In this document: in pieces, positions 19,872-34,456 of the stretch
How positions within the stretch are numbered: position 1 is the first letter of the stretch
Layout of the letters: the number at the start of each line of letters is the position of its first letter
Source: Pseudomonadota bacterium
GTDB lineage: Bacteria; Chloroflexota; UBA5177
Direction: 5' to 3'
DNA length: 38,986 nt
NCBI GenBank assembly: GCA_021324655.1
Contig: JAJPIP010000062.1
Location: 1 to 38,986, forward strand
The notes under the pieces: model-generated
Told to the model about the DNA's origin: nothing
Database searches by the model: none
What the model saw: only the letters and a program-made list of their open reading frames with translations
Program-made: the position numbers and the translations under genes

Positions 19872-19946
19872 CGCGGGGTAGAGCAGTGGCAGCTCGTCGG
19901 GCTCATAACCCGGAGGTCGCAGGTTCGAGTCCTGCCCCCGCTACCA
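19872..19946 (+). tRNA. Initiator tRNA-fMet (CAT)
   Basis: A cloverleaf with CAT anticodon and encoded CCA. Two initiator hallmarks are visible: no Watson-Crick pair at 1-72 (C1 opposite T72), and three G-C pairs at the base of the anticodon stem (GGG before the loop, CCC after). The T arm contains GGTTCGAGTCC. It is followed by the elongator tRNA-Met gene 32 nt downstream. Confidence 0.93.
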
Positions 19947-19949
19947 GTT

Positions 19950-19973
19950 GGGCCGGCCAACGCCGGCCCGTTT
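19950..19973 (+). terminator. Hairpin between the two tRNA genes
   Basis: GGGCCGGC and GCCGGCCC form an 8-bp perfect stem with a CAAC loop, followed by GTTT. This is a plausible intrinsic terminator or processing structure, though the T-run is short. Confidence 0.5.
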
Positions 19974-19978
19974 CATGG

Positions 19979-20053
19979 GGCGGCGTAGCTCAGTGGTAGA
20001 GCAGGGGACTCATAAGCCCTTGGTCGCAGGTTCGAATCCCGCCGCCGCCACCA
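19979..20053 (+). tRNA. Elongator tRNA-Met (CAT); integration site of the element
   Basis: A 75-nt cloverleaf with 7-bp acceptor stem (GGCGGCG/CGCCGCC), CAT anticodon at 20011-20013 and encoded CCA at 20051-20053. The normal 1-72 pair marks it as an elongator. Position 31-39 is an A-G mismatch. The 3' half from 20008 on is duplicated at 34408, showing that an element integrated here and regenerated the gene. Confidence 0.9.
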
Positions 20054-20056
20054 GAA
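20008..20056 (+). repeat. attL (49-bp direct repeat, left copy)
   Basis: The sequence from the last base of the 5' anticodon stem through CCAGAA is identical to 34408-34456. It divides at 20007/34407 (G versus A) and 20057/34457 (C versus A). The crossover probably lies at the anticodon loop, as with many tyrosine integrases. Confidence 0.95.
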
Positions 20057-20085
20057 CATTTGGCTTGTGGGAGCCAAAGAAGAGA

Positions 20086-20114
20086 AGGCCCCGTGGAACG
20101 ATCCGCGGGGCTTT
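20086..20114 (+). terminator. Intrinsic terminator downstream of tRNA-Met
   Basis: A 9-bp stem (GCCCCGTGG/CCGCGGGGC, one G-T pair) with an AACGAT loop is preceded by AAG and followed by TTT. It lies inside the left end of the element and would end tRNA transcription after integration. Confidence 0.6.
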
Positions 20115-20123
20115 CGCTCGAAA

Positions 20124-20149
20124 TACACCCTTTTTTGCACCCATTTCGC
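20124..20149 (+). repeat. Left arm-type repeat of the element
   Basis: A 26-bp sequence with two copies of a T(A/G)CACCC unit spaced 13 bp apart, ending in ATTTCGC. It matches 34272-34297 at 24 of 26 positions in the same orientation, 67 nt inside attL. It is probably an integrase or excisionase arm-binding site. Confidence 0.7.
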
Positions 20150-20223
20150 CTCAGGTGGCTTCCGCACTTCGATCGGTGCTCGTCCCTCAACCTGTGGTCA
20201 TCGGCTCGTCTCCTCCGTCACAA

Positions 20224-20495
<272 letters not shown>

Positions 20496-20615
20496 TCATA
20501 GACTCAAGCTGGCGTCACCCGCGACGGAGTTGTCTTCGTAAGTGCAACACTGCGAACGTGGCGCCAGCACGTCGAAGTAAATCCTGCAAGGTGTAGTAGC
20601 TGTCGGGCTGGGGAG

Positions 20616-21749
20616 GTGGGGGCGATAGATCCGCATAAACGCAGCGACAGCCGGCGGGCGCGTTTCTTCTTCGACGTGACGAATCTGCCGCTCGAGCGGG
20701 ACCTGGCGAGCCATGGGTTTGTCATCTCCGCGCTCCCCGACCCCAAGGGTCTCGCGAAGTCCCTGGCGGAGACGGACGCGACCCATGTCACCACGGGCCA
20801 CGGCCACTATGACCTCTCCATAGAGGCACCGGGGCCTGGCGAGGACGTCAACCCCTTCATCAGGGCGGCCGACACCCAGTTCGGCCGGGCGGCCGATGCC
20901 CTGACCATCCTCCTGTCCTTCGCGTCTCGCCGGAGCGTCCAGTTCCTCGATCCTCACCTCTATGTCGAGGTATCCGATGATGAGCCTCCCGTCCCGCCGC
21001 ACCTGGTGGTCGAGAGCGACGCGGTGGTCTGGCGTTACTTCGGCGGAACCAGCCTGCGCGGCGTGTTCCCCGGTCGCGCCTACGGCCATCCTTGGTATTT
21101 CACCCAGGACGAGCTGGAGGGCTTCCTCGATCGCAACTTCGACCGGCTGCTTCGTGAGAGCGACGAATCATCCGCGGACGAAAGCGCTGGCCTGCGTCTC
21201 GCCATGCATCACCTCAATGCCTCCCGCGTCGACGACTGGCTGGAGTGGAAGTTCGAGAAGGCGTGGACCGCCCTGGAAGGGCTCATCGGACGATCCCCGG
21301 AGAGCAGAAAGCGCCTACCCTTACCCCAGGAGCAGTTCCGCAAAGTCAGGGAGAAGATCAAGGAGGCGATCAATACGCTCCCGGATGAGATACGCCCAGG
21401 GCGATCGGAGCGGGACGCAATGAGCGCCAAGATCGGCGAATTGAATCGGGAGGCGATCATCCCCAGCGCCATGCGCTTCTTCAAGCGGGTCTTCGCCGAG
21501 CATGAGTATCAGGAAGTGACCGAGGCCGATCTCCGGACGTTCCTCGCTATCCGCAACTCGATAACCCATACCGGGATCATGGACCTCGACGCTCTCAAGC
21601 TGCCAGTCGGCTTCCCCTATGACTACGGGACGGTTCTGCCCCATGAACACGAACGGCTCGACTCGCTGGTAGAGCGCGTTGTGCTGGCGTTGCTCGGCGA
21701 GCGGCCCCACCTGATGGACGTGCCGTGGCAGGACTGGAGAAACGGTTAG
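20616..21749 (+). CDS. Uncharacterised protein with a C-terminal HEPN-type RNase motif
   Basis: A protein of up to 377 residues. Near the C-terminus, AIRNSITHTG (Arg313, His318) fits the R-x4-6-H catalytic motif of HEPN ribonucleases, and an upstream helix EKAWTALEGLIG resembles the first HEPN helix. The N-terminal 200 residues are not recognised. The GTG at 20616 abuts a GGGAG and is a poor start, so the true start may lie downstream or the N-terminus may be truncated. It stands alone, convergent with the integrase. HEPN proteins of this size act in antiviral defence (for example ApeA), which its position in a mobile element supports but does not prove. Confidence 0.65.
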   Translation: MGAIDPHKRSDSRRARFFFDVTNLPLERDLASHGFVISALPDPKGLAKSLAETDATHVTTGHGHYDLSIEAPGPGEDVNPFIRAADTQFGRAADALTILLSFASRRSVQFLDPHLYVEVSDDEPPVPPHLVVESDAVVWRYFGGTSLRGVFPGRAYGHPWYFTQDELEGFLDRNFDRLLRESDESSADESAGLRLAMHHLNASRVDDWLEWKFEKAWTALEGLIGRSPESRKRLPLPQEQFRKVREKIKEAINTLPDEIRPGRSERDAMSAKIGELNREAIIPSAMRFFKRVFAEHEYQEVTEADLRTFLAIRNSITHTGIMDLDALKLPVGFPYDYGTVLPHEHERLDSLVERVVLALLGERPHLMDVPWQDWRNG

Positions 21750-21787
21750 CGCGGGGCGCCTCCGAGTCTTGAAGGACGATTGACCTC

Positions 21788-21898
21788 GTGACGGTCAGGG
21801 TGGGCGGACTGGAAGACGCCCTCCTGGACCTGGTCCGTGACACGCGCAAGGTCGTGCTCGTCTCTCTCCCAGAGAGCAAGGGGAAGCTCAAGCCGTAG
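21788..21898 (+). CDS. Possible 36-codon ORF between the HEPN gene and integrase
   Basis: A GTG at 21788 opens a 36-residue frame (starting MTVRVGGLEDALLDLV) ending at TAG 21896. GAAGGA lies about 13 nt upstream, too far for a convincing ribosome binding site. No family is recognised. It could be a decayed remnant or chance. Confidence 0.2.
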   Translation: MTVRVGGLEDALLDLVRDTRKVVLVSLPESKGKLKP

Positions 21899-21955
21899 TA
21901 CCGGCAGGGGAGAGCCGGTTATAGACACGGGACGAGGGGAAGCTTTTCTTTATCT

Positions 21956-23092
21956 TTACGAGGTCATCTCATGGTATTGGGGTTGGTAGAGCCGGTCCAT
22001 GTGGTCTGCCACTTCCTTGTGCAGAGTAGGCAGCACGTGGCTGTAGGTGTTCATGGTCAGTGCGATGCTGCTGTGACCGAGTAGCTCTTGCACCACCTTG
22101 GGATGCACGCCCTGGCTCAAGAGGTACGTAGCGGCCGTATGGCGGAGGTCATGCGTCCTGACACGCGGCAAGTTGGCATACTCGAGCGCACGGTCCTTCG
22201 CGTGACTGATCGAGCCGGCGTCGAATGGACCACCGGTCAGCGTGCAGAACACGAGGTTTCGCTCCGTCCAGGCCTCGCCGGCGACCCTTCGCTCCCATTC
22301 CTGTCGTTTCTGGTGAGTACGGAGTGCAGCGACCGTGCTGCGGGCAAGCTCGATGCGACGACGGCTGTGCATCGTCTTCGTGTCGCCCACTACCAGGCCC
22401 TTGCCTTTGACCCGCTTCACGGTGTCCCGAACGTGCAGGGCCCGCCCGTCCAGGTCGACGTCCTGCCAGTGCAGCCCTGTCGCCTCCCCGATCCGGAGCC
22501 CTGTCGTCACGAGCAGCGCCCATAGCGCATGCAAGCGGTCGGTCCGAGTGCTCTCCAGAAAAGTTTCGACCTCTTCCGGCGTGAGCGGCCGCATCTCGCG
22601 GCGAGGCGGTCGCGGTGCTGTGACGCGCTCGATGGGGTTGTACCCGATCAAGCCGAGCTTCACCGCGTGGCGGAGGGCATTCTTCAACGTGCGGTGCACG
22701 CGGTTGACGCTCGTTTCCGAAAGGCTCTCCAGTAGTGTCGTATAGGCACGCTGGATATGCTCGTGGCGGAGCGCGTCGAGGCGGACATTCCCAATGTGGG
22801 CGCGGAGTCGCTCGACATCGCACCGGTACGAATCATACGTGGTCGGCTGGACGGTCAACTTGACGCGCCCCTCCAACCACTCGTCCAGATACTCACCGGT
22901 CTTCTTCGCTTTGCCGGCCACCAGGCGACCTTCCTCTGCAGCGCGGACTACCTCCTTGAGCTTCTCCTGTGCCTCCTTGCGAGTTTTGCCATAGACGTAC
23001 TTGCGTTTGCCATCCCCGAGGCGTACACGGGCTCGCCACAAGCCGTTGTCGAGCTTCTTGAAGTTGCCTTCGCCGTTCCCTCGTCGTCCCAT
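21956..23092 (-). CDS. int: Tyrosine recombinase / site-specific integrase
   Basis: A 378-residue phage-type integrase that recombines the element with tRNA-Met. Catalytic residues are visible: Arg200 in TTGLRIGEATGL, Lys239, His314 and Arg317 in THDLRHTAATYL, His340 in LLGHSS, and Tyr350 in TMNTYSHV. An N-terminal AP2-like arm-binding segment (WRARVRLGDGKRKYVYGKT) and a SAM-like core-binding domain precede it. ATG 23092 is chosen because AGGAGG lies 6 nt upstream. The gene lies about 1.9 kb inside attL and is preceded by the excisionase gene on the same strand. Confidence 0.95.
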   Translation of the reverse strand: MGRRGNGEGNFKKLDNGLWRARVRLGDGKRKYVYGKTRKEAQEKLKEVVRAAEEGRLVAGKAKKTGEYLDEWLEGRVKLTVQPTTYDSYRCDVERLRAHIGNVRLDALRHEHIQRAYTTLLESLSETSVNRVHRTLKNALRHAVKLGLIGYNPIERVTAPRPPRREMRPLTPEEVETFLESTRTDRLHALWALLVTTGLRIGEATGLHWQDVDLDGRALHVRDTVKRVKGKGLVVGDTKTMHSRRRIELARSTVAALRTHQKRQEWERRVAGEAWTERNLVFCTLTGGPFDAGSISHAKDRALEYANLPRVRTHDLRHTAATYLLSQGVHPKVVQELLGHSSIALTMNTYSHVLPTLHKEVADHMDRLYQPQYHEMTS

Positions 23093-23159
23093 GTCGCGCC
23101 TCCTCTGGTCGCTTGGTCGCTCGCTCCGGAAGCAGAGCAATCCGACTATGGACACGGCA

Positions 23160-23378
23160 TCAACGTCGATGTCTCGGCATCTCCGACTGTCCACCCTGTC
23201 CTCCGAGTACACCGACCTGCCGTGCGATCCATTCCTCCAGTGCTGACTCCGGAATGCGACGACAGCGGCCGATCTTGATGGTTCTGAGTCCACCGTTGGC
23301 GATCAGCTCATAGACCGTCGTCCGTCCGATGGCCAGCCTCTTCGCAACATTCTTCACCGTCAGTAGGTTCTCTGCCAC
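23160..23378 (-). CDS. xis: Excisionase-family helix-turn-helix protein
   Basis: A 72-residue MerR-like (HTH_17) protein: LTVKNVAKRLAIGRTTVYEL forms the helix-turn-helix and GLRTIKIGRCRRIPESALEEW the wing. Proteins of this family next to integrases serve as recombination directionality factors. The start is GTG 23378 with GAGAGG 8 nt upstream. It overlaps a 34-codon ORF and lies 67 nt before the integrase start. Confidence 0.88.
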   Translation of the reverse strand: MAENLLTVKNVAKRLAIGRTTVYELIANGGLRTIKIGRCRRIPESALEEWIARQVGVLGGQGGQSEMPRHRR

Positions 23379-23464
23379 CGTCTTGTCCTCTCAACTTTCC
23401 ATCCGGCTTCTCGACAGTACGTCGACGCAGTCTTGATGTCGTGGTCTGATTGCTCATTTGTCAT
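23360..23464 (-). CDS. Possible 34-codon ORF bridging the ATPase and excisionase genes
   Basis: ATG 23464 overlaps the ATPase stop by 4 nt (ATGA), and the frame ends 19 nt into the excisionase gene. The peptide is hydrophilic and basic (MTNEQSDHDIKTASTYCREA at the start). The coupling arrangement matches the other junctions of this operon. It is not recognised as a family and may only serve to carry ribosomes to the excisionase start. Confidence 0.4.
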   Translation of the reverse strand: MTNEQSDHDIKTASTYCREAGWKVERTRRWQRTY

Positions 23465-26118
23465 TCCCTTTCCTCCTCGGCTCGGTCGGTCTCCTCACCG
23501 CCGGCCAAACCGGCCAGCGTCCGTGGGTACGCTTTGGCATCCGGCTTCCCCTTGCGGTGCTCGTTCCGCGGCGGCCGCTCTTTGGGGGTGCTCGATTCGT
23601 TCGATTTACCCTGCCTCGTCTTGCCCCGATCTTGCTCGCCGAAGGCGGCCGGATGGCTGGCCTCAATTCGCGCCAGGGCGGAGCGGAGGTCTCGCTCGAC
23701 TGCACTCCGTTCCTGGCCGTAGCGCGCGGCCGAAGTTCGGGCGAGTTGCTCTATGACGGATGATTCGATCTTGGGCGGCGGATCGAGCTGGACGGAGAAG
23801 GTGGGGAGACGCTCACCGGCGGCGGAGAGCTTGACGTAGCATTGATGCTCCCCCAGCCCCACCAGGTCCTGCTCGTCCACCTCGCCGCCCAGTTCAGGAA
23901 CGAGATAGCGGGCGTCCTCGGCACTGGTGTGGAAGGCGAAGAGGCCGTCGAGGTTCGCGAAGACCAAAGAACGAAAGGCGCCAGGATGCTCCCGGTCGAG
24001 CGCGGCGAGGCGAGCGAGGCTCTGGGTGGCCAGGATGAGGTTGGTGCCGTACTTGGCGAGCTCGGTGAGGATGCCCTCGTAGTCGGCGCCGGGCATGGTG
24101 TGGAACTCGTCGACAACGACGGTTACCGGGCGGCGCCGATGGGGAGGGAGGCATGCTTGCTCGGCGACGGCCAGGGAGATCAGGTTGAGCAGGGTAGCAC
24201 CGAGGAGGGCCGAGGTATCCTCTCCGACCGTCCCCTTGGCTGTATTGACGATGACGATCGACCCCGAGCGGAGCCAGGTGAGCGGCTCGATCGTGGAGCG
24301 GGGCTGGCCGACGATGCAGCGGGCGGCGGCACTCCCGGCGAAGCGGTGAATCTTGCTCTCGACCGGATTCGCCACCTCCATCTGGAAGCGGCGATCCAGG
24401 CGCTCGTAGTAGCCGGACCACCAGCTGGTGACGACGGGATCGGTGACGTGCGTGAGGACGCTCTTGCGGAATGGAGCATCGGCGAGCAGCGCCGGCACAT
24501 CCAGGATGGTGTACTGGCGCTCCCGTCCTCCCACTTCCTTACAAAGGGTCTGGTTGGCGGCATAGAGGGTGAGCAGGGCGAAGCGGAAGGCATCCTCCAT
24601 GCGCGGGCCCCAGAAGCCACTGAACTCGTGCCGGAAGATGGCAAGCAGGTTGGCTACGGCCTTGTCCTGATCCCAGCCCAGACGGACGTCGAGCAAGTTG
24701 AGACCGAACGGCCGATCGTGGGCGGCGACGTCGAGGTAGACGACATCATCCCGTCTGTCGGGCGGAACCACGCCTAAGGCGGCCTGTGCGAGGTCGCGGT
24801 GCGGATCGATCAAGACCAGGGTCGGGTGCACCCCATCCATGGTGTGGACTTCCATGATGTGCTGGGCCAGGCGCAGCAAGAGAGAGGACTTGCCGCGGCG
24901 CGTCTTGGCGACGAGCAGGAGGTGACGGCGGAGCACCTCCTCAGGAATCGCCACTGGAACGGAGCGGGACTGATGGCCAGAGACACCGATGCGGCAGCCG
25001 AATGCGACGGCGGCGGGCAGGGGTAATCTCCGGCGCGCCGTGGTGCGATCAAGGAGGGGCACGTCGGCCTGCGCCTGTGGGAGGTGCCAGACACCGGCAA
25101 GCTCGCGGGTGCTCAGGATCGGCACACGGCGCCGCGGCGGGAGAAAACGGAGCTGGCGCAGGTCGTGGTGCGGATTCAGGGACCGAGCGACGAGACCGTT
25201 ACCCACCGCGAGATTGAACTGGCGGTAGCCGGCGGCCAGCCGCTGCAACCGCTCCTCGACCTGGCGACGCGGCACGTCCTCCGGCGCGAAGATCGCCAGG
25301 CGAATCTGAGCGTGATACGCCATGCCGCTCATCTTCTCCTGCACCAGCCGCATGTCGTAGATCGGCTTCCTCCCTCTCCGGCTCAGGAGCCAGAGGACGG
25401 CCACCGTGCCCATCAGGCCCGCCGCGACCAGCTCGGCCAGGTGAAGGACGTCTCCCGCCCGGTACCATCGGTACGCCTGCAGGGCGAGGGTACCCATCAC
25501 CAGAAGGAAAGCCAGGGCGACGACCTCCCGGAGCGAGGTGTCGGCGTGACTCGAGACGCGTTCTCGTTCGGGAACCAGGGGATGCTCGACTGTCAGCCGC
25601 AGGTAGTTCTGGCACCAGTCATCCGCTGCCGGTCGCAGAATGAGCTGGATCAGGCCGCGCCAGCCGTCGGGTAGGTTGCCGAGGGCGGCGAGCAAACCGA
25701 CCATCGGGTCAGCCTGAGCGCCGTATGCCGCGCCGATCTCGACGTCGCGGAAAGTGCGCAGAGGAAGGTAGGTCGGGGCGCGCAGCACCAGGGTGCAGAC
25801 CTGCATCTGCTCACCGTCGCGCTGCCAGGCCGGATCGAGGCCGGGAGAGCGCGTGAGGTCAAGGTGCTTCAGGTCGGCCTGGGGATAGGCAGCGGCAAGC
25901 TGTGCCTCAAGGTGCTGGCGCATGGCGGGACCTCCCGACCGTGCGAGAAACCAACGCCCCGTGTGGGTGGCGGCGATCTCCAGGCTGAAGGTTTCGGGGT
26001 AGGCGATGGCCGCGAAGAGGTTCTCGGCCGGCGTGATGATGGCGGTGTTCGTGCGCGGCGTGATGATCTCGATCAGCTCTGGCTGGTCCTTATCTCGTTG
26101 TCGCTGCCTGAGCTTCAT
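23461..26118 (-). CDS. TraD/TraG-FtsK-type DNA translocase ATPase
   Basis: An 885-residue membrane ATPase of the conjugative DNA-transfer superfamily. Two hydrophobic helices lie near 199-215 and 228-245. The P-loop is AKTRRGKSS at 404-412, with Ala in place of the usual first Gly. Walker B is VTVVVDEFHTM (Asp670, Glu671), followed by NLILATQSLARL. The C-terminus is charged and probably disordered. It overlaps the replication-relaxation gene by 4 nt (ATGA). In this setting it is the likely motor for moving or partitioning element DNA. Related proteins occur in plasmids and ICEs of Gram-positive bacteria. Confidence 0.85.
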   Translation of the reverse strand: MKLRQRQRDKDQPELIEIITPRTNTAIITPAENLFAAIAYPETFSLEIAATHTGRWFLARSGGPAMRQHLEAQLAAAYPQADLKHLDLTRSPGLDPAWQRDGEQMQVCTLVLRAPTYLPLRTFRDVEIGAAYGAQADPMVGLLAALGNLPDGWRGLIQLILRPAADDWCQNYLRLTVEHPLVPERERVSSHADTSLREVVALAFLLVMGTLALQAYRWYRAGDVLHLAELVAAGLMGTVAVLWLLSRRGRKPIYDMRLVQEKMSGMAYHAQIRLAIFAPEDVPRRQVEERLQRLAAGYRQFNLAVGNGLVARSLNPHHDLRQLRFLPPRRRVPILSTRELAGVWHLPQAQADVPLLDRTTARRRLPLPAAVAFGCRIGVSGHQSRSVPVAIPEEVLRRHLLLVAKTRRGKSSLLLRLAQHIMEVHTMDGVHPTLVLIDPHRDLAQAALGVVPPDRRDDVVYLDVAAHDRPFGLNLLDVRLGWDQDKAVANLLAIFRHEFSGFWGPRMEDAFRFALLTLYAANQTLCKEVGGRERQYTILDVPALLADAPFRKSVLTHVTDPVVTSWWSGYYERLDRRFQMEVANPVESKIHRFAGSAAARCIVGQPRSTIEPLTWLRSGSIVIVNTAKGTVGEDTSALLGATLLNLISLAVAEQACLPPHRRRPVTVVVDEFHTMPGADYEGILTELAKYGTNLILATQSLARLAALDREHPGAFRSLVFANLDGLFAFHTSAEDARYLVPELGGEVDEQDLVGLGEHQCYVKLSAAGERLPTFSVQLDPPPKIESSVIEQLARTSAARYGQERSAVERDLRSALARIEASHPAAFGEQDRGKTRQGKSNESSTPKERPPRNEHRKGKPDAKAYPRTLAGLAGGEETDRAEEERE

Positions 26119-28007
26119 CGTGCTGCCTTTCCGGTCGTCCTGACGGTGATGGGATCCGGCCGCCTCGTGGTCATGTTCTCCTTGGGCGCCGACCGCTTGT
26201 GCTTGGTGGAGGGAAGCCAGAAGCGGCGCTCGTCGAAGGCGGCCCCCGGCTCCCGCCAGATAGGGCCGAGAAGGCCGTGTGGGTTACCGTGATCCTCGAG
26301 GCGCCACGTGCAGGTGAGCAGGAGTGGCAAGGGGCAGCCGTAGCGATCGGCGGAACTCTGAGCAACGCACGCGATGGTCTCCTCCGTCGTGTTGTTCGTC
26401 GTCACGAGCAAGATCGTGGGATACCCGGCATAATCCCGTTCGTAGCGGCGGCTGATGCCGTAGTCGTAGTACGCGTCGAGCTTCTCGGTATAGCCTCGCC
26501 GCCGCATCGTGCCGCGGTCGTATTCCAGAAAGAAGCCGTAGATCGTGCCGTCGCGCCGATACATGCCGTACCCGTCCGGCCGCAAGTGGTGACGGCTACA
26601 GGCGCTGGCGTTCTGCCAGGTGAGCATGGCGTCGTCGCTCCCTGCTGCAGCCGAGCGCCGGGCCGCCTCGTACAGTCCCACAAAGAGCGCGTCGACACCC
26701 ATGGTGTGCGCCAGCTCTCGCAGGAGCTTCACCCGAGAGCCGAGCGGCTCGTCCGGCCCCCCTCCCGCCAGCCCCAGCTCGCGGATCGCCACCGGTCGCG
26801 TCAGCGCACGGTGCGCGGCGACCAACGCCAGACCGGAAACCGTCAGCTCGACCAGCTCCATCTCTGCCTCCTTGCCGATCTCGTCCTCCTCGACGAGCCG
26901 CATGAGTCGAAGGCCCATGAGGCGACGAAGGCGTTGCCGCACTGTCGTCCTCTTCGAGCCGAGGACGGTAGCCAGACGTGCGGGAGTCAAGAACGGGTGC
27001 TGGGCCACCAGATCCAGAAGCTCGTGCTCGCGCGGCGTGATCGTTAGCGCCAACCGGCCGAGTCCACCCGCGACCGAGACAGACCCGGCGTGAGGGGCGA
27101 CATCGCCGACCAACCGGGGAAGCGGAGACGCGGGGCGCCGCGGACGCAGCGGCCGGAGACCGATGCGCCTGATGGTCTCCCTCGTTGCCGGGCGGTCGTA
27201 CGCGCCCATCTCCTCGAGCCGCCCCAGATCTGCTGAGAGATGCTCCCAGGTCGCGATCAGCGCAGCCCATCCGGCCTCCCAGCGGGACCACCGCACCTCC
27301 TCCAGCAGCTGCTCCCAGGCAGCTGCCCGGTCTTTGCCAGTCGTGGCGACAAGCAGGCAGGGGAAGGCGACATCCTGTAGCGGCCGGAGGCCGAGCAGCC
27401 GGTAGAGCGTCGGCCGGTAGAGGCGGAGGGGGAAGGTGCCGAGATCGGGAACGAGCAAGAAAGACCCGACCTGGTCGCCCCAGGAGAGGACGGCGTGGGC
27501 AGGGAGGGTGACGGAGACCGGCGTCTTGGCGGTAGGCGGCCGGTAACGCCGGTGCCAGGGACGTTCCCAGTGGAGGAGCTGCGGCCAGCCGGGACCGGCC
27601 TGGGCGAGCCCCGCGAGCAGCTCGTAACCGGCCAGGATTTCCCGGAGCCTGGGAGCGACCGCCAACAGATCGACGCCGCGCAGATGCCAACAGTGAGCCA
27701 GGGAGGCCGGCTCGACGTCGTGGTCCAGGGCGACGGTGGCCAGACCGAGATCGGTGAGGTAGTAGAGCCGGCACGGCGGCTCGGCGTAGAGGGCAGGCTT
27801 GATGGCCCTCACCAGCCCCGCCTCCCGCAAGCGCTCCAGGGAGCGGTAGACGCTGGCTCCTCCCCGGAGACCGATTAGCTGCGCCAGGATGGAGGCGTTC
27901 ACGAGCGGGAGAGACGTGATGAGCATCAAAGTACGTCGATCCCCCGGTCTGGCTCGCAGCCAGGCCAGCGCTTCTTCCGCGTCTTGCCAATGTAGTCGCT
28001 CGGACAT
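26115..28007 (-). CDS. Replication-relaxation family protein
   Basis: A 630-residue protein with an N-terminal winged-helix segment (about 27-110), a second winged helix near 345-400 (PREHELLDLVAQHPFLTPAR), and a C-terminal domain containing RPDGYGMYRR, GFFLEYDRGTM and KLDAYYDY. The PDG...LEYDRGT pattern is the signature of the replication-relaxation family and resembles a PD-(D/E)XK nuclease core. A family member is needed for replication of Bacillus plasmid pAW63. ATG 28007 is the first gene of the mobility operon and directly follows the 11-bp iteron clusters. Confidence 0.82.
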   Translation of the reverse strand: MSERLHWQDAEEALAWLRARPGDRRTLMLITSLPLVNASILAQLIGLRGGASVYRSLERLREAGLVRAIKPALYAEPPCRLYYLTDLGLATVALDHDVEPASLAHCWHLRGVDLLAVAPRLREILAGYELLAGLAQAGPGWPQLLHWERPWHRRYRPPTAKTPVSVTLPAHAVLSWGDQVGSFLLVPDLGTFPLRLYRPTLYRLLGLRPLQDVAFPCLLVATTGKDRAAAWEQLLEEVRWSRWEAGWAALIATWEHLSADLGRLEEMGAYDRPATRETIRRIGLRPLRPRRPASPLPRLVGDVAPHAGSVSVAGGLGRLALTITPREHELLDLVAQHPFLTPARLATVLGSKRTTVRQRLRRLMGLRLMRLVEEDEIGKEAEMELVELTVSGLALVAAHRALTRPVAIRELGLAGGGPDEPLGSRVKLLRELAHTMGVDALFVGLYEAARRSAAAGSDDAMLTWQNASACSRHHLRPDGYGMYRRDGTIYGFFLEYDRGTMRRRGYTEKLDAYYDYGISRRYERDYAGYPTILLVTTNNTTEETIACVAQSSADRYGCPLPLLLTCTWRLEDHGNPHGLLGPIWREPGAAFDERRFWLPSTKHKRSAPKENMTTRRPDPITVRTTGKAAR

Positions 28008-28074
28008 GTAGTCGCTTCTATCCCTTCCCTTTCGTGCTGGAGTTGTCGTTCTCTCTCCAGTCTCAGAACCGTCC

Positions 28075-28129
28075 GTGACTTCGGCGTGACTTCGGCGTGA
28101 CTTCCCGGTGACTTTTCGGTGACTTGGGC
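28075..28129 (+). repeat. Iteron cluster A: five 11-bp tandem repeats
   Basis: Units begin at 28075, 28086, 28097, 28108 and 28119. The first two are GTGACTTCGGC exactly; the other three keep GTGACTT and vary in the last four bases. The strict 11-bp period places one site per helical turn. The cluster lies 68-122 nt upstream of the replication-relaxation gene. Confidence 0.85.
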
Positions 28130-28156
28130 TTCGATTCTCAGTTTGAGGAGCCTCAG

Positions 28157-28211
28157 CTACTCCCGAGCTACTTTCTGACTACGGATCGCCTACTTTCCGA
28201 CTACCTCCCGG
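28157..28211 (+). repeat. Iteron cluster B: five 11-bp tandem repeats
   Basis: CTAC begins units at 28157, 28168, 28179, 28190 and 28201. The best copies are CTACTTTCTGA and CTACTTTCCGA. The period is again exactly 11 bp, but the unit differs from cluster A. Confidence 0.75.
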
Positions 28212-28325
28212 GATGTTGGCCGCTGAGCAGAAAGTCGATCGGTCAGCGCCATGCAATCGCGAAATCCCTGCGGGCATCAGGCTCGGTCGCCTGCCGCTTA
28301 CTGAACTGTCTCCACCGTACGGAGC

Positions 28326-28369
28326 CTGACTTACGCGTGACCCACGCGGGGCTTACATGGGGCTTACGA
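28326..28369 (+). repeat. Iteron cluster C: four 11-bp tandem repeats, with possible degenerate extension
   Basis: Units CTGACTTACGC, GTGACCCACGC, GGGGCTTACAT and GGGGCTTACGA lie at 28326, 28337, 28348 and 28359. In the same phase, GGGGATTTCGC at 28381 looks like a further degenerate unit. The ACTTACGC core resembles the ACTTCGGC core of cluster A. Confidence 0.7.
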
Positions 28370-28610
28370 GGCTACGACCAGGGGATTTCGCGGAGATTCG
28401 CACGATCATGATGACGCGCGGTCCGTCGCCAGCCTCTCACCCTGTAGAGCCGGCCAGCGGGCCGTCCGCTTCCCCTCGTCGCTCGCGCGCGTACTCGGTC
28501 CCTTTCCGTCGCGGCCGAGAGCTCATAGACAGAGCGCTGAGTTTGCACTAGACTTTAGGGTAGCCAGCTATCCCGCTATCTATCAAACCCTCATGAGTAA
28601 GGATGGCACG

Positions 28611-28934
28611 ATGCCCGAGGAGCGCAAGGTACAGACGAACCTCAAGCTCTCGGCCGAGAGGGCGGCAGCCCTGGACGTTGCCTCTGCTGTGGAGGGGAAA
28701 GACAAGGCACAGATCGTGGAAGAGGCCCTTCGGTTGCGTGAGGAGCTGATGGGGACCGAGTATCGCGAGATGATCAAGGTCGCTCTCACCGTTCGCTTCT
28801 CCAACAATCCCGAGGATCGTCTGGCGGCGATCGAGTCGCTGCGAGACAATGTTCAGGGAGCCACGCCGGATGGCTCTGTTGCGGTCGAGGCTGCTATCGA
28901 GAAAATCCAGGCTCGGCGTCGTCAACCTGCGTGA
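28611..28934 (+). CDS. Ribbon-helix-helix (CopG/Arc-type) DNA-binding protein
   Basis: A 107-residue protein whose N-terminus reads as a ribbon-helix-helix fold: strand KVQTNLKLS, helix AERAAALDVASA, turn and helix KAQIVEEALRLREEL. The C-terminal half is helical and not recognised. ATG 28611 has AAGGA 7 nt upstream; an earlier ATG at 28593 has none. RHH dimers commonly bind tandem sites about one helical turn apart, so the adjacent 11-bp iterons are plausible targets. It could act as an operon repressor, copy-control or partition protein. Confidence 0.72.
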   Translation: MPEERKVQTNLKLSAERAAALDVASAVEGKDKAQIVEEALRLREELMGTEYREMIKVALTVRFSNNPEDRLAAIESLRDNVQGATPDGSVAVEAAIEKIQARRRQPA

Positions 28935-29036
28935 CCGGCCTCGCCATTACCGCGAGGTGCCTGGAGCAAGGCCTTCCTCCGGAGCCGGGAGCGCGGGGAC
29001 ACGGTTGGGGGGCCGGAAGTGCAGGATAATCGAAGC

Positions 29037-29372
29037 ATGACGACGCGCGGGACGGAAGCACCGCCGACGCTCGAGGAGCTGCGCTCTGTGCGTGATGCCA
29101 TCCTGCACGCGGCATCGCTGCACCATGTCACCAATGTGCGGGTGTTCGGCTCGGTCGCCCGTGCAAAGGCGACGACCCGGAGCGACGTCGACGTCCTCGT
29201 GGACGTTGCCCCGGAGTGCGGTGGCTGGGAGTTCTTTGGCATCCTCCATGACCTACGCCAGGATCTGGAAGCTTTGCTCGGGCGTCGGGTGGATGTTGTG
29301 AGCATCCGTGGCCCGGCGCCTGACGCACGGAACATGGCGGCAGAGATCGAACGGGGCGCTCTCCCCCTGTGA
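29037..29372 (+). CDS. MntA-type minimal nucleotidyltransferase antitoxin
   Basis: A 111-residue minimal nucleotidyltransferase with the motif VFGSVARAKATTRSDVDVLV, containing the GS and DxD residues that bind nucleotide and metal. Such proteins pair with HEPN (HepT) toxins and inactivate them by adding AMP to a tyrosine near the active site. ATG 29037 is used; a GTG at 29019 is also possible. The stop overlaps the next frame by 4 nt (GTGA), the usual arrangement, but that toxin gene is broken. Confidence 0.88.
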   Translation: MTTRGTEAPPTLEELRSVRDAILHAASLHHVTNVRVFGSVARAKATTRSDVDVLVDVAPECGGWEFFGILHDLRQDLEALLGRRVDVVSIRGPAPDARNMAAEIERGALPL

Positions 29373-29649
29373 GCGCCGATGCTGACATCCGGCGTCTCCT
29401 GTACATCCGCGACACTATTACGGCGATCGAGGAACCGGCGCGCACGGGCTGCTGCCCACGGAGCTGAGTGCCCGGCGCGCCGAGATACTCCGGGAGGGCA
29501 TCCGCGGCTTCCGCAACATTGCCGCCCACGGCTATTTCCGCATCGCTCTCGACGCTGTTTAGGACATCGTGGACAAGCACCTGGCAGCACTGAAGGCCGT
29601 CGCTGTGGAGGAGCTTCGCGAGCGCGGGCACCAGGCTGGTCCCTCGTGA
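29369..29649 (+). pseudogene. Broken HepT (HEPN) toxin gene
   Basis: GTG 29369 overlaps the antitoxin stop and encodes a HepT-like start (ADIRRLLYIRDTITAIEE), but the frame shifts and stops at TGA 29465. The rest continues in another frame: FRNIAAHGYFRIALDAV, which includes the R-x4-H HEPN motif (29512-29529), then TAG at 29560 where the family usually has Trp, then DIVDKHLAALKAV. About 20-40 residues of the middle are missing compared with usual HepT length. The toxin is therefore probably inactive through deletion, frameshift and nonsense. Confidence 0.85.
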
Positions 29650-29920
29650 ACCCCAAGGCGTAACCATCGAAATGCCGAGTCCGGACCGAGGTGCGGGTGG
29701 AAGTGTTTTCAGGCGGCGTACCCGCATACGAGTGAGAGTCAATACGTATATGGTCCGGAAGTTTTACGCAGTTTCCGGCGTCGCCCGGCGGAAAAATGAC
29801 CGAGTCCGCCGATTCGCTGACTGCTCAGATTCGACGTCACTGAGGCTGCGCAAATGTGGCTCCCGGCTGCCCTGCGGCTGAAGTAGCGGCCGACGTGTGT
29901 GGCTCTCCCATGCCACCTTG

Positions 29921-30514
29921 TCACCCGGTTGAGCGCGACTGCCGAAGCAACTCGACGATCTGGTGCAGTCGAGTGTCGATCGCACGGATGATGGCTCCCG
30001 GATCGTCCGGTTCCCCACCACTTGACGGGTACGTCGTGCCTATCGCGAGGCGGAGGTGACGCGCTATCCTCGGCATTCGAAGCGACAAACCAGCGATCTG
30101 GACGAAGCCTCCCGCAGAGAGCACGGCTCGAATCGATCCATGGTCTGCGGTGTGAAGCTGCCGGTCCCGGACGGCGCTCACTACCTCCAGGAAAGTCAGC
30201 CCGTGCGGCGCCACCGTCAAGGTCGGCACCAATGACTTTTGGTACATCCGACCGAGACTGCCGCGCAGTTCTCGCAGCACATCCGGATCTGCCAAGCGCA
30301 CCTCCTCGTGTACCTGCACTTCGATGCCGACTGAACGCGGCACAGGCACATCCGCTGTACGGTCGACGTGGACGGACTCGCCAGCGCGGCGCCAGGCAAG
30401 TTGGTCCGCGAGGTCGAGACCGTGGAGACTTTCACCCACGTGACCCAGCCACGACCAGAGACCGCCCCCGAATTGCCTCAATAGGCCTAGAGCCGGCAGG
30501 GCGAGCGGATGCAT
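29921..30514 (-). CDS. Uncharacterised protein downstream of vsr
   Basis: A frame of 197 codons from ATG 30514 with mixed, protein-like composition, including EVQVHEEVRLADPDVLREL and LTFLEVVSAVRDRQLH. No ribosome binding site precedes that ATG, and the frame stays open upstream into the end of vsr, so the protein may be longer and co-translated with vsr. I recognise no family. It is the last gene in the direction of the restriction-modification module and could belong to it. Confidence 0.45.
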   Translation of the reverse strand: MHPLALPALGLLRQFGGGLWSWLGHVGESLHGLDLADQLAWRRAGESVHVDRTADVPVPRSVGIEVQVHEEVRLADPDVLRELRGSLGRMYQKSLVPTLTVAPHGLTFLEVVSAVRDRQLHTADHGSIRAVLSAGGFVQIAGLSLRMPRIARHLRLAIGTTYPSSGGEPDDPGAIIRAIDTRLHQIVELLRQSRSTG

Positions 30515-30606
30515 GCAACGGCAGCGAGCCGGCGCCGGAAGAAAGCCCTCGACGACGTTGATCCTGTGCAGTGTCGAGGCGTAGCTGCTGGAGGCTCCCG
30601 GGGAGT

Positions 30607-31128
30607 CTACGTCCGCTGAGCCAATGCTGCTGTCACGGAAGACGCGGACTCAGCTCTCTTCAGGCTCTCCCGCGGCGGAGCTGAGGTTCCTCCGTCGCCC
30701 ATCCGCGCTTTCTCGACTTCACAGGTCCTTGCCGACGCCTGGCCGCCACCGGTCGCCTCGAGAACCGCAACCAGCCTATGAATCGGTGCCGAAGGGGCGT
30801 TTAGTTCGTGCTCCCACACGCGGAACACGCGTATGCCCACATTTGCGAGTGCTTCTGCGTGCTCTCTGTCCCGCTCACGGTTACGCTGGATCTTCGCGCT
30901 CCAGTAAGGAGTGTTCGTTTTGAGAACCCGTCCGCTGCGACAATCGGGACAGCCGTGCCAGAAGCAGCCGTCCACAAACACAGCCACTCGCTGCGCAGGA
31001 AAGTAGAAGTCCGGCTTCCCCGGCAAACCCTTGGGACGGAGCTTCCATCCCTTGAGTTGCGCGCGGACAAGTGCCAACCGGAAACGAACCTCAGTAGATT
31101 TATTGCCCTCCGCCCGGATGGCTCGCAT
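30607..31128 (-). CDS. vsr: Very short patch repair endonuclease (Vsr family)
   Basis: Vsr nicks T:G mismatches that arise from deamination of 5-methylcytosine. The 173-residue frame has GKPDFYFPAQ (Asp40, the catalytic Asp), VDGCFWHGCPDC (Asp53, His58), and the terminal VFRVWEHELN. The Vsr-like segment MRAIRAEGNKSTE is the usual N-terminal helix, but in-frame sequence continues upstream (RFQDVPPARTKT, also Vsr-like) to a TGA near 31220, with no ATG/GTG/TTG. A CTG at 31200 with GGGAGG 5 nt upstream may be the true start. It accompanies the C5 methyltransferase, as expected. Confidence 0.9.
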   Translation of the reverse strand: MRAIRAEGNKSTEVRFRLALVRAQLKGWKLRPKGLPGKPDFYFPAQRVAVFVDGCFWHGCPDCRSGRVLKTNTPYWSAKIQRNRERDREHAEALANVGIRVFRVWEHELNAPSAPIHRLVAVLEATGGGQASARTCEVEKARMGDGGTSAPPRESLKRAESASSVTAALAQRT

Positions 31129-31226
31129 AGTCTTTGTGCGAGCAGGCGGAACGTCTTGGAACCTTCCGCCAGGAAGTGTCTCACGGAGCTTTTTATCCAG
31201 GGCAGCCTCCCGTCTTCACATGCCGG

Positions 31227-32336
31227 TCATGGCAAAGGGAGATCCAAATCAGCCTTCAGCTGCGTCCAGCAACGCTTCACCTGCTCGGAGGTGTTGGGAT
31301 CGGATATGTACTCGTGCAAGGCGGTATGGAACTGAAGCCTTGCAGCAGGCGTCATGCGCAATAGTTGTCCCATTGTCCATTCGAAGATGTCCACAAAGTG
31401 GTAAACCGTGTCCTCGTACTGTGTTCTGCCCAAGTACTGGGCCGCATCACCGGTCTTGGCGGCGCTTTCCGGCACGTCGTCGGGGCGGCAGAGGACGAAA
31501 ACCTCTTGAGTCACGTACCCAGTTCTGCGTTCACTAAGTTTCAAAGTGTCGAACGACTCGGTGATTCGAGCGTCTGTGAACGGCTTCACGGTGACCTCGT
31601 ACACCGACAGCACCTCACCATCAGGCTTTTCTTCCTGAATATCTCCCGGCTTATGGCTCGTGGTACTGGTCACTGAGGCACGATCCTCGTGACCAGATAC
31701 CACTACACCGTCGCCCAATGATGCGTGGTACGTGTACATCAAGAGGCCCACAATGCGCTGAGGGGTGTTGCCCCCATCTGGCACTTCAACGATGAGATCT
31801 TTGCACAGGCGATACAGCACCTCTGGTTCGGACTCCGGCACCTCCTCACCTGTCAACCCAGCAATATGGGAAGCAAGGTCTGCCAGCCCTCTCATCAGGG
31901 CAGCGCCGAAGTGCTCGAGTTCGCTCTGCGTCATCTGATCGATGGCCTTCGTCAGCGATACTACCAGCGGCGCGACCTCCGGATCCCGGCGCCTCGCTGC
32001 CCACTGTTCATTAATGCCCTCGGCCCCCTTCGCGATATTCAACGGGCCTGACTTTCTGTGTGGAATCCCGTTCTCTCGTAGGATGGGGCGAATGTGGTTT
32101 TCGAATAGAGAGCGAGGATGACAGGCGTAGAAGTTGGTGCATGCGCTGTAGGTCGGATCGAGTAGGCGACCGACAACCATAACCAGAAGAATCTCCCGAT
32201 ACCCCCACACCGACGAGTTGAGCACCTTCTCCAGGCTGGCGTTGGTCGAGTAGTCCAGGTGGAAGCTACCCGCCCGGCCCGAACCGAGTAACCTCGCAAG
32301 CAGATCGGGAACGCGCTGGTAAGGGTTCGCCATCAC
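31227..32336 (-). CDS. Putative type II restriction endonuclease
   Basis: A 369-residue protein with no family that I can name with certainty. Its place directly after the controller gene (GTGA/ATG overlap at 32333-32336), and with the methyltransferase and Vsr, makes it the likely endonuclease. The segment ending VYEVTVKPF, with HKPGDIQ before it, may be a divergent nuclease core. The segment GIPHRKSGPLNIAKGAEGINEQWAA looks strongly conserved and may be family-specific (a SacI-type endonuclease is possible). Start is GTG 32336 or ATG 32333. Confidence 0.65.
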   Translation of the reverse strand: MMANPYQRVPDLLARLLGSGRAGSFHLDYSTNASLEKVLNSSVWGYREILLVMVVGRLLDPTYSACTNFYACHPRSLFENHIRPILRENGIPHRKSGPLNIAKGAEGINEQWAARRRDPEVAPLVVSLTKAIDQMTQSELEHFGAALMRGLADLASHIAGLTGEEVPESEPEVLYRLCKDLIVEVPDGGNTPQRIVGLLMYTYHASLGDGVVVSGHEDRASVTSTTSHKPGDIQEEKPDGEVLSVYEVTVKPFTDARITESFDTLKLSERRTGYVTQEVFVLCRPDDVPESAAKTGDAAQYLGRTQYEDTVYHFVDIFEWTMGQLLRMTPAARLQFHTALHEYISDPNTSEQVKRCWTQLKADLDLPLP

Positions 32337-32569
32337 GCCTCCCTCTCGTGGCCGAGAAGATCGGCAGGGGACACGCCCAGCGCCTTGGCGAGGCGATACA
32401 GGTTCTCCAGACCAATGTTCCGTCGACCCCTCTCGCAGCTGCTGACATATGTCCTGTCCAGTCCTGCTCGAGCGGCCAACTCCTCTTGGGAGATGTTTCG
32501 TTCCTGCCGCAGTTCCCGGAGACGAGTACCGAAAAGCAGCTTGGGATCGGAGGGAGGCTCTGCTGGCAT
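32333..32569 (-). CDS. Restriction-modification controller (C) protein, XRE-family HTH
   Basis: A 78-residue XRE-type helix-turn-helix protein: LRELRQERNISQEELAARAG and LDRTYVSSCERGRRNIGLEN. Size and sequence fit restriction-modification controller proteins, which delay endonuclease expression until methylation is complete. Its stop overlaps the endonuclease start. No clear Shine-Dalgarno lies at the ATG, and the promoter is close, so the mRNA may be leaderless, as is common for C genes. A C-box pair lies at 32593-32618. Confidence 0.88.
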   Translation of the reverse strand: MPAEPPSDPKLLFGTRLRELRQERNISQEELAARAGLDRTYVSSCERGRRNIGLENLYRLAKALGVSPADLLGHEREA

Positions 32570-32592
32570 ACCCCCGATTTACAAGGAATGAC

Positions 32593-32618
32593 GACGATTA
32601 GTCTACGGACTATGAGTC
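32593..32618 (-). promoter_or_regulatory. C-box operator of the controller-endonuclease operon
   Basis: On the minus strand GACTCATAGTC (32618-32608), CGTA, then GACTAATCGTC (32603-32593). This follows the canonical two-box layout of controller proteins (GACTnnnAGTC, a 4-bp spacer, a second box), and the sequence around it resembles the Esp1396I operator. The boxes lie 24-49 bp upstream of the C start. The C-distal box is a perfect match and the proximal one has a single change, as expected for activation at the distal and repression at the proximal site. Confidence 0.85.
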
Positions 32619-32661
32619 ACATAGGCGATGCGGAGGGGAACTCTCGCTCGCTATGGAAGTC

Positions 32662-33723
32662 CTAGCCTGAAGCGGCCAGCCCGTACTCGAGGGAGAGTTG
32701 GTATGGTTCATCCTCGAGAGGATCAGCGTCCATCGGCTCTGCCGCTAGTTGCTCCGCCAGTGCTCGCGCCACCGCCCGAGCCAAAGGGGGAGGCACGGCA
32801 TTGCCCACTTGGGAGTAACGCTTGGACTGAGGACCCAAGAATGAGAATTCATCGGGGAACCCTTGGATGCGTGCGGACTCTGCGACCGTCAGTCGTCTGA
32901 CGCCCTCAACCTCGCCGATGCGCGGTGCCCCGCCGCTCCTCAGGTGTGCATGGTACGCCACAAGGACGCCGCGCGGATCAAGAATGTGCGTTCTGTTTCC
33001 GCCAGCACTCGCCGGTATTGTTTGACACGGTTCCTCCAAATTGATCGGACGGCCTTGACCGTTCACCATCATCCCGTCCCATGGTTGGGGACGAAGCACA
33101 GGATCCTTCGCATAGACGATCTTCGCCGTGTTCGGCAGGTCGGGAGGGGGGTTCCTCAGCGCCGCACCCGCTGTAACGAACGGCATCTGGCCCCTCGGCC
33201 CGTGTGTCGGGGCGGGAAAGACAAACGGTCTGTGCCTCATCCCAACAACTATCAGTCGCTTTCGGTGCTGAGGCGCTCCATACTCGGCTGCATCCAGTAC
33301 TGATCTTCTAACGACATACCCAAGCTCTGTCAATTGTTCGATAGCGTTCAGGAGGTAAGCTCGATGCCTCCGAAGCTCGAGTCCCCAAACGTTCTCCATG
33401 AGAAAAGCCATCGGCTGGACCTCCTTCACCACACGGATGAAAGACGGTACGCAGTCGCGAGGGTCTTCCTTTGATCGTTGCTTGCCTGCTACGGAGAAGG
33501 GCTGGCAAGGCGGGCCTCCGGCCACCAAGTCCACAACCCCCCGCCACTGCACGAAGCTCAGAGAGTTGATGTCTTGCTCTATGACTTCAACAGCCGGGAA
33601 ATTATGCCTATACGTTGCACAAGCATACCTGTCGAACTCAACAGCAAGTACAGTGTCCCAGCCCGCCAGGTGCAGACCAAGGGTCAGACCTCCAGCGCCC
33701 GCGAATAAGTCGATGCTCTTCAC
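32662..33723 (-). CDS. DNA (cytosine-5-)-methyltransferase
   Basis: A 353-residue type II C5 methyltransferase that protects the element's recognition site. All main motifs are present: I DLFAGAGGLTLG (5-16), IV GGPPCQPFS (69-77, catalytic Cys73), VI ENV (110-112), VIII QHRKR (152-156) and X GNAVP (307-311). The recognition domain between VIII and IX is short, so the target is probably a simple palindrome. GTG 33723 has AGAGGA 6 nt upstream. It is transcribed towards, and lies 92 nt before, the controller gene. Confidence 0.95.
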   Translation of the reverse strand: MKSIDLFAGAGGLTLGLHLAGWDTVLAVEFDRYACATYRHNFPAVEVIEQDINSLSFVQWRGVVDLVAGGPPCQPFSVAGKQRSKEDPRDCVPSFIRVVKEVQPMAFLMENVWGLELRRHRAYLLNAIEQLTELGYVVRRSVLDAAEYGAPQHRKRLIVVGMRHRPFVFPAPTHGPRGQMPFVTAGAALRNPPPDLPNTAKIVYAKDPVLRPQPWDGMMVNGQGRPINLEEPCQTIPASAGGNRTHILDPRGVLVAYHAHLRSGGAPRIGEVEGVRRLTVAESARIQGFPDEFSFLGPQSKRYSQVGNAVPPPLARAVARALAEQLAAEPMDADPLEDEPYQLSLEYGLAASG

Positions 33724-33756
33724 TCATGTCCTCTTAAGAGAATCTGGGGCCATGGT

Positions 33757-33777
33757 GGGTATACCCAATATATTGGG
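33757..33777. promoter_or_regulatory. Overlapping palindromes covering the methyltransferase promoter
   Basis: CCCAATATATTGGG (33764-33777) is a perfect 14-bp palindrome and GGGTATACCC (33757-33766) a perfect 10-bp one; they share three bases. On the minus strand the first contains TATATT, a good -10 with a weak TGGCAA 17 nt upstream. The sites lie 34-54 bp before the methyltransferase start and could mediate autorepression. Confidence 0.6.
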
Positions 33778-34271
33778 GCTACGAGCGGATTGCCACCTAC
33801 CGTTCGCGCCATGCTAGCTATATTAGAACTAATGACCGACTGCGACTGCAAGTCCCGCAGTCGGGACTGCCACCGACCGCGACGCGGGAGCCGGCCCTGC
33901 CACCGCGTAGCACGTCCTCGACAGGAGCGACCAAATGCTCTTCCGGCCGGCTGCTGTAACGATCGAAGCCGTTTCATCTGCCCCACCGGAGCCGCCGATG
34001 ATTTGGAATCCGCCATTCAGGCTATACATGTTATCTCTGGCATCCCCGGCTGCCCCACACTCAGATGCTTGTACAAGCGCCCGGCGGCGATCCACGATCA
34101 GCTTGAGGGGTCGACTGGAATGCACTCTGTTCCAGCAGCAGTCGGTCGGGTCCGCAGCTCCGGGGAGCGGGCAGATGTGCGGAGGTTTCATGCGACGAGT
34201 CTATCTTCTCCTAGCATGCTTGGAGCCGGTAGCGGGGCGATGGTCTAGCAGGGCCGTCTGCAACTGATTTC
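33778..34271. other. Non-coding or degraded stretch before the right arm
   Basis: About 490 nt with short open frames on both strands, none with a family, ribosome binding site or convincing composition. The best is a 120-codon minus frame (33829-34191), which overlaps plus-strand frames. Between 33840 and 33880 there is a small inverted repeat (CAGTCCCG-like bases around 33848-33868). I see no gene that I can support. Confidence 0.4.
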
Positions 34272-34297
34272 TGCACCCTTTTGTGCACCCATTTCGC
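34272..34297 (+). repeat. Right arm-type repeat of the element
   Basis: A 26-bp sequence with TGCACCC at 34272 and again at 34284, followed by ATTTCGC. It matches the left arm repeat at 24 of 26 positions, same orientation, 110 nt before attR. In the excised circle the two would flank the core, like the arms of a phage attP. Confidence 0.7.
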
Positions 34298-34407
34298 TCC
34301 GTTCGTCACCGTTCGGCCGCGGTCGCCAGGAGCCCGGTATCTCGCTTTTTGGCTTGAGCACGCGAAGTACGAACCTTCGGGGATTTCGGCGAACGTCAGT
34401 CCCCAGA

Positions 34408-34456
34408 ACTCATAAGCCCTTGGTCGCAGGTTCGAATCCCGCCGCCGCCACCAGAA
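34408..34456 (+). repeat. attR (49-bp direct repeat, right copy)
   Basis: Identical to 20008-20056. Only the tRNA 3' half is present; the sequence before it has no tRNA 5' half, so it is not a functional tRNA gene but the original 3' end displaced by integration. Chromosomal sequence resumes after it. Confidence 0.95.

Follow-up and report, generated by a model that had tools for sequence, protein, structure and literature searches.

Phased 11-bp repeat arrays as a putative relaxase-binding part of oriT in a Chloroflexota integrative mobilizable element

An element at a tRNA-Met gene and its relaxase

The window, by which we mean the whole 38,986-nucleotide stretch analyzed here, is part of a 108-kb contig (C53) in a 3.8-Mb draft genome. 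Within it lies a 14.4-kb element (20057–34456) bounded by an exact 49-bp direct repeat, the first copy of which (attL, 20008–20056, plus strand) includes the 3′ end of a tRNA-Met gene (19979–20053) and the second of which (attR, 34408–34456, plus strand) ends the element. This tRNA gene is the second of a tandem tRNA-Met (CAT) pair (19872–20053) and is the attachment site. Three genes lie in turn on the minus strand: a tyrosine integrase (21956–23293), a HerA/TrwB-like ATPase proposed as the coupling protein (23461–26118), and a 630-aa protein of the Replic_Relax family (PF13814; 26115–28007). The ATPase gives weak DUF87 and TrwB_AAD_bind matches, no FtsK model matched it, and it is 41–64% identical to its relatives. 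Named relatives of the ATPase are mostly Chloroflexota metagenome-assembled genomes at high identity, followed by Patescibacteria at low identity, which makes Chloroflexota the probable phylum of the host.

Two further gene groups accompany this module. Divergent from the relaxase operon, a plus-strand group (28593–29663) comprises a ribbon-helix-helix (RHH) gene (28593–28934), a minimal nucleotidyltransferase (NTP_transf_2; PADLOC candidate PDC-S09, E 3.7e-23) and a 94-aa ORF, and looks like toxin-antitoxin or candidate defence cargo. On the minus strand (30607–33723), a Vsr-like nicking endonuclease, a 369-aa ORF and a C5-cytosine methyltransferase form restriction-modification-like cargo. 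No type IV secretion system (T4SS) family was found among the ORFs scanned, nor any TrbL or PEGA homologue in the window. With an integrase and a relaxase between direct repeats, and T4SS genes not recognised, the 14.4-kb element is an integrative mobilizable element (IME). Its compact module of coupling protein, relaxase and integrase without a T4SS resembles class 8 of the streptococcal IMEs (PF13814/MobC relaxase, VirD4, integrase) as outlined in the relevant part of PMC5357655. That class differs in phylum and in its serine integrase, where the present element has a tyrosine integrase and a coupling ATPase that is only weakly like VirD4/TrwB, and the same part of PMC5357655 reports no oriT arrays.

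The PF13814 match of the 630-aa protein is strong (E 6.5e-28; 98.5 bits against a gathering cut-off of 25.3), and TraX of plasmid pAM373 matches the same family at 27.1 bits; the family is recognised as the MobC (MOBC) relaxase superfamily (PMC5357655). In 14 homologues P477-D478, E495, D497 and K509 are invariant, which is the PD-(D/E)XK pattern (PD..ExD..K). An AlphaFold2 model (mean pLDDT 84, pTM 0.83) contains a winged helix plus a nuclease-like domain, twice over; as read from the secondary structure of this model, the first nuclease-like half appears to be a degenerate copy and the second complete. Sequence profiles place MarR-type winged helices at about residues 16–97 and 310–397, and the best structural match in the PDB was FokI (E 2.5e-3), followed by MarR-type winged helices, with no E-value passing 0.001. 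Direct comparison with pAM373 TraX by hhalign covered the winged helix only and was not significant (probability 2.6, E 0.017), and the NCBIfam MobC_subf model matched at E 4.2e-4, yet far under its cut-off. MOBC membership thus rests on the PF13814 match and the motif, by which sequence criteria the protein is a putative MOBC-type relaxase. It had no match in plasmid or phage collections, and a contig scan with this single relaxase as query found nothing, whereas the ATPase alignment as query did recover relatives.

Three arrays in 11-bp register

Upstream of the relaxase gene lie three clusters of 11-bp units, all treated here as features of the minus strand. Array A1 (28075–28129), a candidate relaxase-binding site ending 67 bp from the relaxase start codon, has five units reading GTGACTTNNNN on the plus strand and NNNNAAGTCAC on the relaxase-operon strand, with GTGACTT starting at 28075, 28086, 28097, 28108 and 28119. 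Array A2 (28157–28211) has five units of CTACNNNNNNN on the plus strand, AAGTAG-like on the operon strand, with CTAC at 28157, 28168, 28179, 28190 and 28201. Array A3 (28326–28380), of the TGACTTACG type, has four clear units (CTGACTTACGC at 28326, GTGACCCACGC at 28337, GGGGCTTACAT at 28348 and GGGGCTTACGA at 28359) and a weaker fifth at 28370. Every step within the three arrays is exactly 11 bp.

The initial annotation had described three clusters in exact 11-bp register, and this description held: each exceeds shuffled DNA. In first-order Markov shuffles made per segment, the scores of A1, A2 and A3 were equalled at period 11 in none of 500 (each P = 0.002, 1/501, the smallest possible value) and over any period of 8–23 in none of 60 (each P = 0.016, 1/61, again the smallest possible). 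A1 is the best-scoring tandem array in the window, and its self-match at lag 11 (41/55) tops all lags from 8 to 29 across the window. Among the loci compared for an exact 4-mer occurring at least five times in register at period 11, only A1 and A2 had one; a scan for perfect 5-mers in register proved too strict for degenerate arrays, and a Dirichlet column score was used instead.

The three clusters may not represent unit types that are unrelated to one another. On the relaxase-gene strand A1 reads AAGTCACG, A3 reads AAGTCAG / GGTCACG / GTAAGCC and A2 reads AAGTAG, so that AAGTCA is common to A1 and A3; A3 TGACTTACGCG and A1 TGACTTCGGCG are identical at 9 of 11 positions, and by this comparison the A3 unit appears to be the A1 unit in diverged form. 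A2 is similar to the units of a related locus, L086 (GAAGTAATCGG). The suggestion that three unit types imply three proteins is correspondingly weak, as a single unit seems to underlie at least two of the clusters in variant form. The array DNA had no match in the plasmid collection.

Inverted repeats near the arrays are limited to two. An exact 11-bp pair (CGCGAAATCCC / GGGATTTCGCG; left arm 28258–28268, right arm 28382–28392, plus strand) encloses A3, and a 24-bp dyad, CTGGAG-N12-CTCCAG (28037–28060; shuffle P 0.01 at this locus), opens inside a box, GAGACTGG (28057–28064, minus strand; consensus A[AG][ACG]CTG), that lies between A1 and the operon. Next to A1 there is nothing comparable to the long inverted repeat of pAM373.

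Arrays and box at related transfer operons

Whether such arrays occur at homologous loci was a refuting test proposed in the initial annotation, and they do: of 14 related Chloroflexota elements, 7 have an 11-bp array ahead of the transfer operon, with unit sequences that differ, at P 0.005 in six (C114, L086, L089, L096, L108, L110) and at P 0.025 in L102. About half of the related operon starts are thus without a clear 11-bp array, and in three (L090, L092, L106) the best period is 21 bp. These 14 starts, in draft genomes, were located for the most part through homologues of PEGA or TrbL proteins, and they are not a fully blind sample, some relatives having first been noticed via the array. 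In most relatives the array ends 44–75 bp ahead of the first operon gene. Of 52 loci, a count that includes a few duplicate records, 18 scored best at period 11 and at most 6 at any other single period that is not a multiple of three; distantly related ATPase loci, mostly of Patescibacteria, had no period-11 excess (3/47).

The units themselves vary (GAAGTAATCGG, TGCAACTCNCC, GGGACCCTC, NNNNACGCYCA and others), yet the operon strand of 16 upstream regions is enriched in GT[AC]A[CT], with 32 occurrences compared with 11 on the opposite strand and a shuffled value of 9.8. Direct DNA alignments of the window region with relatives scored within the shuffled range: the flanks are not conserved among relatives, and motif and period alone are kept. 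PEGA-domain proteins are often encoded first in Chloroflexota transfer operons (L086:1876–3291, L108:335–1777 and relatives); they have beta-propeller-like repeats and an MxFPF-type start, and no T4SS name is attached to them. A related element elsewhere (L059:2032–2096, G228:C34) carries an array of 15-bp period (GTCAGACCGGGTCAA) about 3 kb past its integrase.

The GTGACTT unit of A1 recurs on contigs C114, C127 and C207. Allowing at most one mismatch, 7 genomes of the class together have 10 occurrences of GTGACTT-N4-GTGACTT and none of the reversed control pattern, and the pairs in the genome of the window (G000) and on two of four contigs of G005 adjoin relaxase, T4SS or integrase genes. 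In G005, which belongs to another genus, C127 (L007:3373–3416) has GTGACTT at 11- and 22-bp steps upstream of a broken PF13814 gene whose product is 50% identical. A second element of the window's own genome, on C114, has a GTGACTT array (L047:1902–1956) 44 bp upstream of trbL and encodes TrbL, a TraG/VirB4-like P-loop protein, PrgI, a CHC2 primase, an ATPase, a relaxase and an integrase. A tRNA-Arg gene beside that integrase (G000:C114:24880–24955) is the likely attachment site; no second copy of a flanking repeat of at least 15 bp was found near the expected end. The third contig, C207 of G005 (L048:4518–8080), has an integrase gene and two degenerate GTGACTT arrays, each after a similar stem-loop sequence, and no relaxase or ATPase homologue was found on it, which suggests either a remnant or a hitchhiker that has no relaxase.

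The box A[AG][ACG]CTG is kept as well, occurring between array and first gene at 11 of the 14 operon starts (once on the reverse strand) against a shuffle mean of 1.4 and a maximum of 5 in 1000 shuffles. In several elements it opens dyads with differing stem letters (CTGGAG/CTCCAG, CTGACG/CGTCAG, TAGACTGGCATTC/GAATGCTAGTCTA), many of which are not significant individually. The box may mark nic, or it may serve as a −10 element accompanied by an operator.

A putative origin of transfer and its rivals

The closest precedents are plasmids with MOBC relaxases. According to a 2025 review (PMC12857230), from which we take the facts on pAD1, TraX of pAD1 (the MOBC prototype) has an N-terminal winged helix and binds oriT at five direct repeats about 70–120 bp from nic. 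Five MOBC plasmid regions served as positive controls, and in four of them the gap separating the traG-like and traX genes holds tandem repeats, either of 11 bp (five units) or of 12 bp (five to six units). In pAM373 a 12-bp unit (TTAGGCATACCT) recurs five to six times next to a large inverted repeat, in the gap separating the PF13814 gene from the traG-like gene; in two plasmids whose TraX is 60% identical, five 11-bp units (TAGAGTAAGTA) lie between traG and traX; and another has six 12-bp repeats in the same gap. The fifth, in which an insertion sequence adjoins traX, had no array. We infer that the five 11-bp plasmid repeats are the published pAD1 binding site.

The present locus shares with pAD1 oriT2 and pAM373 oriT (Enterococcus faecalis) a set of five (to six) tandem 11- or 12-bp repeats beside PF13814 and TraG-like genes, and with their TraX a relaxase of winged helix plus restriction-endonuclease-like active site. 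It differs in that its unit sequence is unrelated to theirs, in that pAM373 TraX has 261 aa and one domain copy whereas the protein here has 630 aa and two, and in that a large inverted repeat adjoins the pAM373 array whereas only the 6-bp dyad and the 11-bp repeat pair occur here. Moreover, theirs is a Bacillota plasmid and ours has three clusters on an integrated Chloroflexota element.

We read the arrays, with a probability of roughly 0.7, as the putative relaxase-binding (iteron) part of the oriT in an IME whose relaxase is of MOBC type. One suggestion of the initial annotation, namely that the adjacent replication-relaxation protein reads a transfer site here, gains support, the family of that protein being the MOBC superfamily, whose prototype binds five direct repeats, and 11-bp arrays being present at homologous loci. 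In the proposed mechanism, the integrase would excise the 14.4-kb circle from tRNA-Met, and the winged helices of the PF13814 protein would dock on the repeats, whose one-turn spacing would set a row of relaxases on one helix face. The PD-(D/E)XK domain of a docked relaxase would then nick a nearby nic, perhaps at the AGRCTGG box and dyad adjoining A1, and the coupling ATPase would deliver the strand to a mating pore. As the element has no recognised pore, it would depend on one from elsewhere; the T4SS element on C114 is the obvious candidate helper because it carries the same iteron unit and mobilizable elements with a common helper have oriTs like the helper's (PMC6414798). As A1 and the box sit at the expected promoter of the relaxase operon, relaxase binding at A1 probably also controls that operon.

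Regulation without transfer is the main competitor, in which a winged-helix protein (the relaxase or another regulator) would bind repeats upstream of a TAGRCT −10 box and have no role in nicking. The 44–75-bp distance to the first operon gene in most relatives favors it, as does the fit of the conserved box to a TANNNT −10 element, TAGACT being commoner upstream of genes than in coding DNA (two counts only), and the position of A1 just upstream of the −10-like box fits a plain operator equally well. However, in the MOBC prototype a site of the same format is bound by the relaxase (PMC12857230). The array keeps to the first gene of the transfer operon, be it the relaxase, ATPase, PEGA or trbL gene, which is how an oriT would behave, and no other conserved DNA-binding gene was seen; we therefore regard an operator-only role as unlikely.

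Binding by the divergent RHH protein, whether in the manner of ParR on parC or as a relaxosome accessory protein, appears highly improbable. Its gene lies 200–500 bp from the arrays, and ParR binds 11-bp repeats at parC, which in plasmid R1 come in sets of five with an RHH gene nearby. Yet no RHH homologue occurs in any related locus searched, including those with the GTGACTT unit, so that the arrays persist without it, and GCTATC repeats, noted by eye, lie just upstream of the RHH gene itself (28567–28585). Most known relaxosome accessory proteins are RHH proteins (PMC12857230), but with a nucleotidyltransferase gene next to it this one is more likely a toxin-antitoxin regulator; the protein had no match in the plasmid collection. 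The partition site that had been suggested, if of ParRMC type, finds no support, no ParM-like family having been found among the ORFs scanned and the RHH gene not travelling with the arrays in relatives.

Nor does the proposed kinship with the clt sites of Streptomyces seem likely. Those sites are likewise short tandem repeats on integrated elements with an ATPase, TraB, but their spacing is 8 bp rather than 11 bp, and a nuclease-type relaxase is present here; TraB systems have an FtsK-type double-stranded DNA translocase, whereas the ATPase here matches DUF87 and TrwB_AAD_bind weakly and no FtsK model. Highly improbable, too, is that the arrays are arm-type sites of the integrase or replication iterons of the excised circle: some tyrosine integrases read short tandem arm sites, C207 has two arrays near an integrase and no relaxase homologue, and the Pfam title of PF13814 includes "replication," but 8 kb separates the arrays of the window from the tRNA att repeat, and on C114 the distance to the integrase is about 12 kb. 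The arrays track the operon start and not the att end, and no Rep-like gene was recognised in the element, so that the replication origin first proposed is not supported either.

Returning to the relaxase-binding part of an oriT as our preferred reading, we offer a more ambitious version of it tentatively, as something we would sooner doubt than defend: that Chloroflexota have a distinct MOBC relaxosome, with a doubled relaxase, drifting phased 11-bp iterons and an oriT that is also the operon promoter, and that the oriT here is composite, with two iteron specificities (GTCAC and GTAG) serving more than one helper, one of them in the same genome.

Lack of sequence conservation has left most oriTs outside a few model plasmids unrecognised, and a full-text literature search joining MOBC, oriT and Chloroflexota found no paper. 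The array format, known from plasmids of gut bacteria, is here found in an unrelated phylum. That format is kept, with some five sites phased at 11 bp where a transfer operon begins and a conserved box after them, while the unit sequence changes. With the kept format as a rule, MOBC-type oriTs can be sought across a range from enterococcal plasmids to Chloroflexota, and the pairing of mobilizable elements with the helpers they ride can readily be tested.
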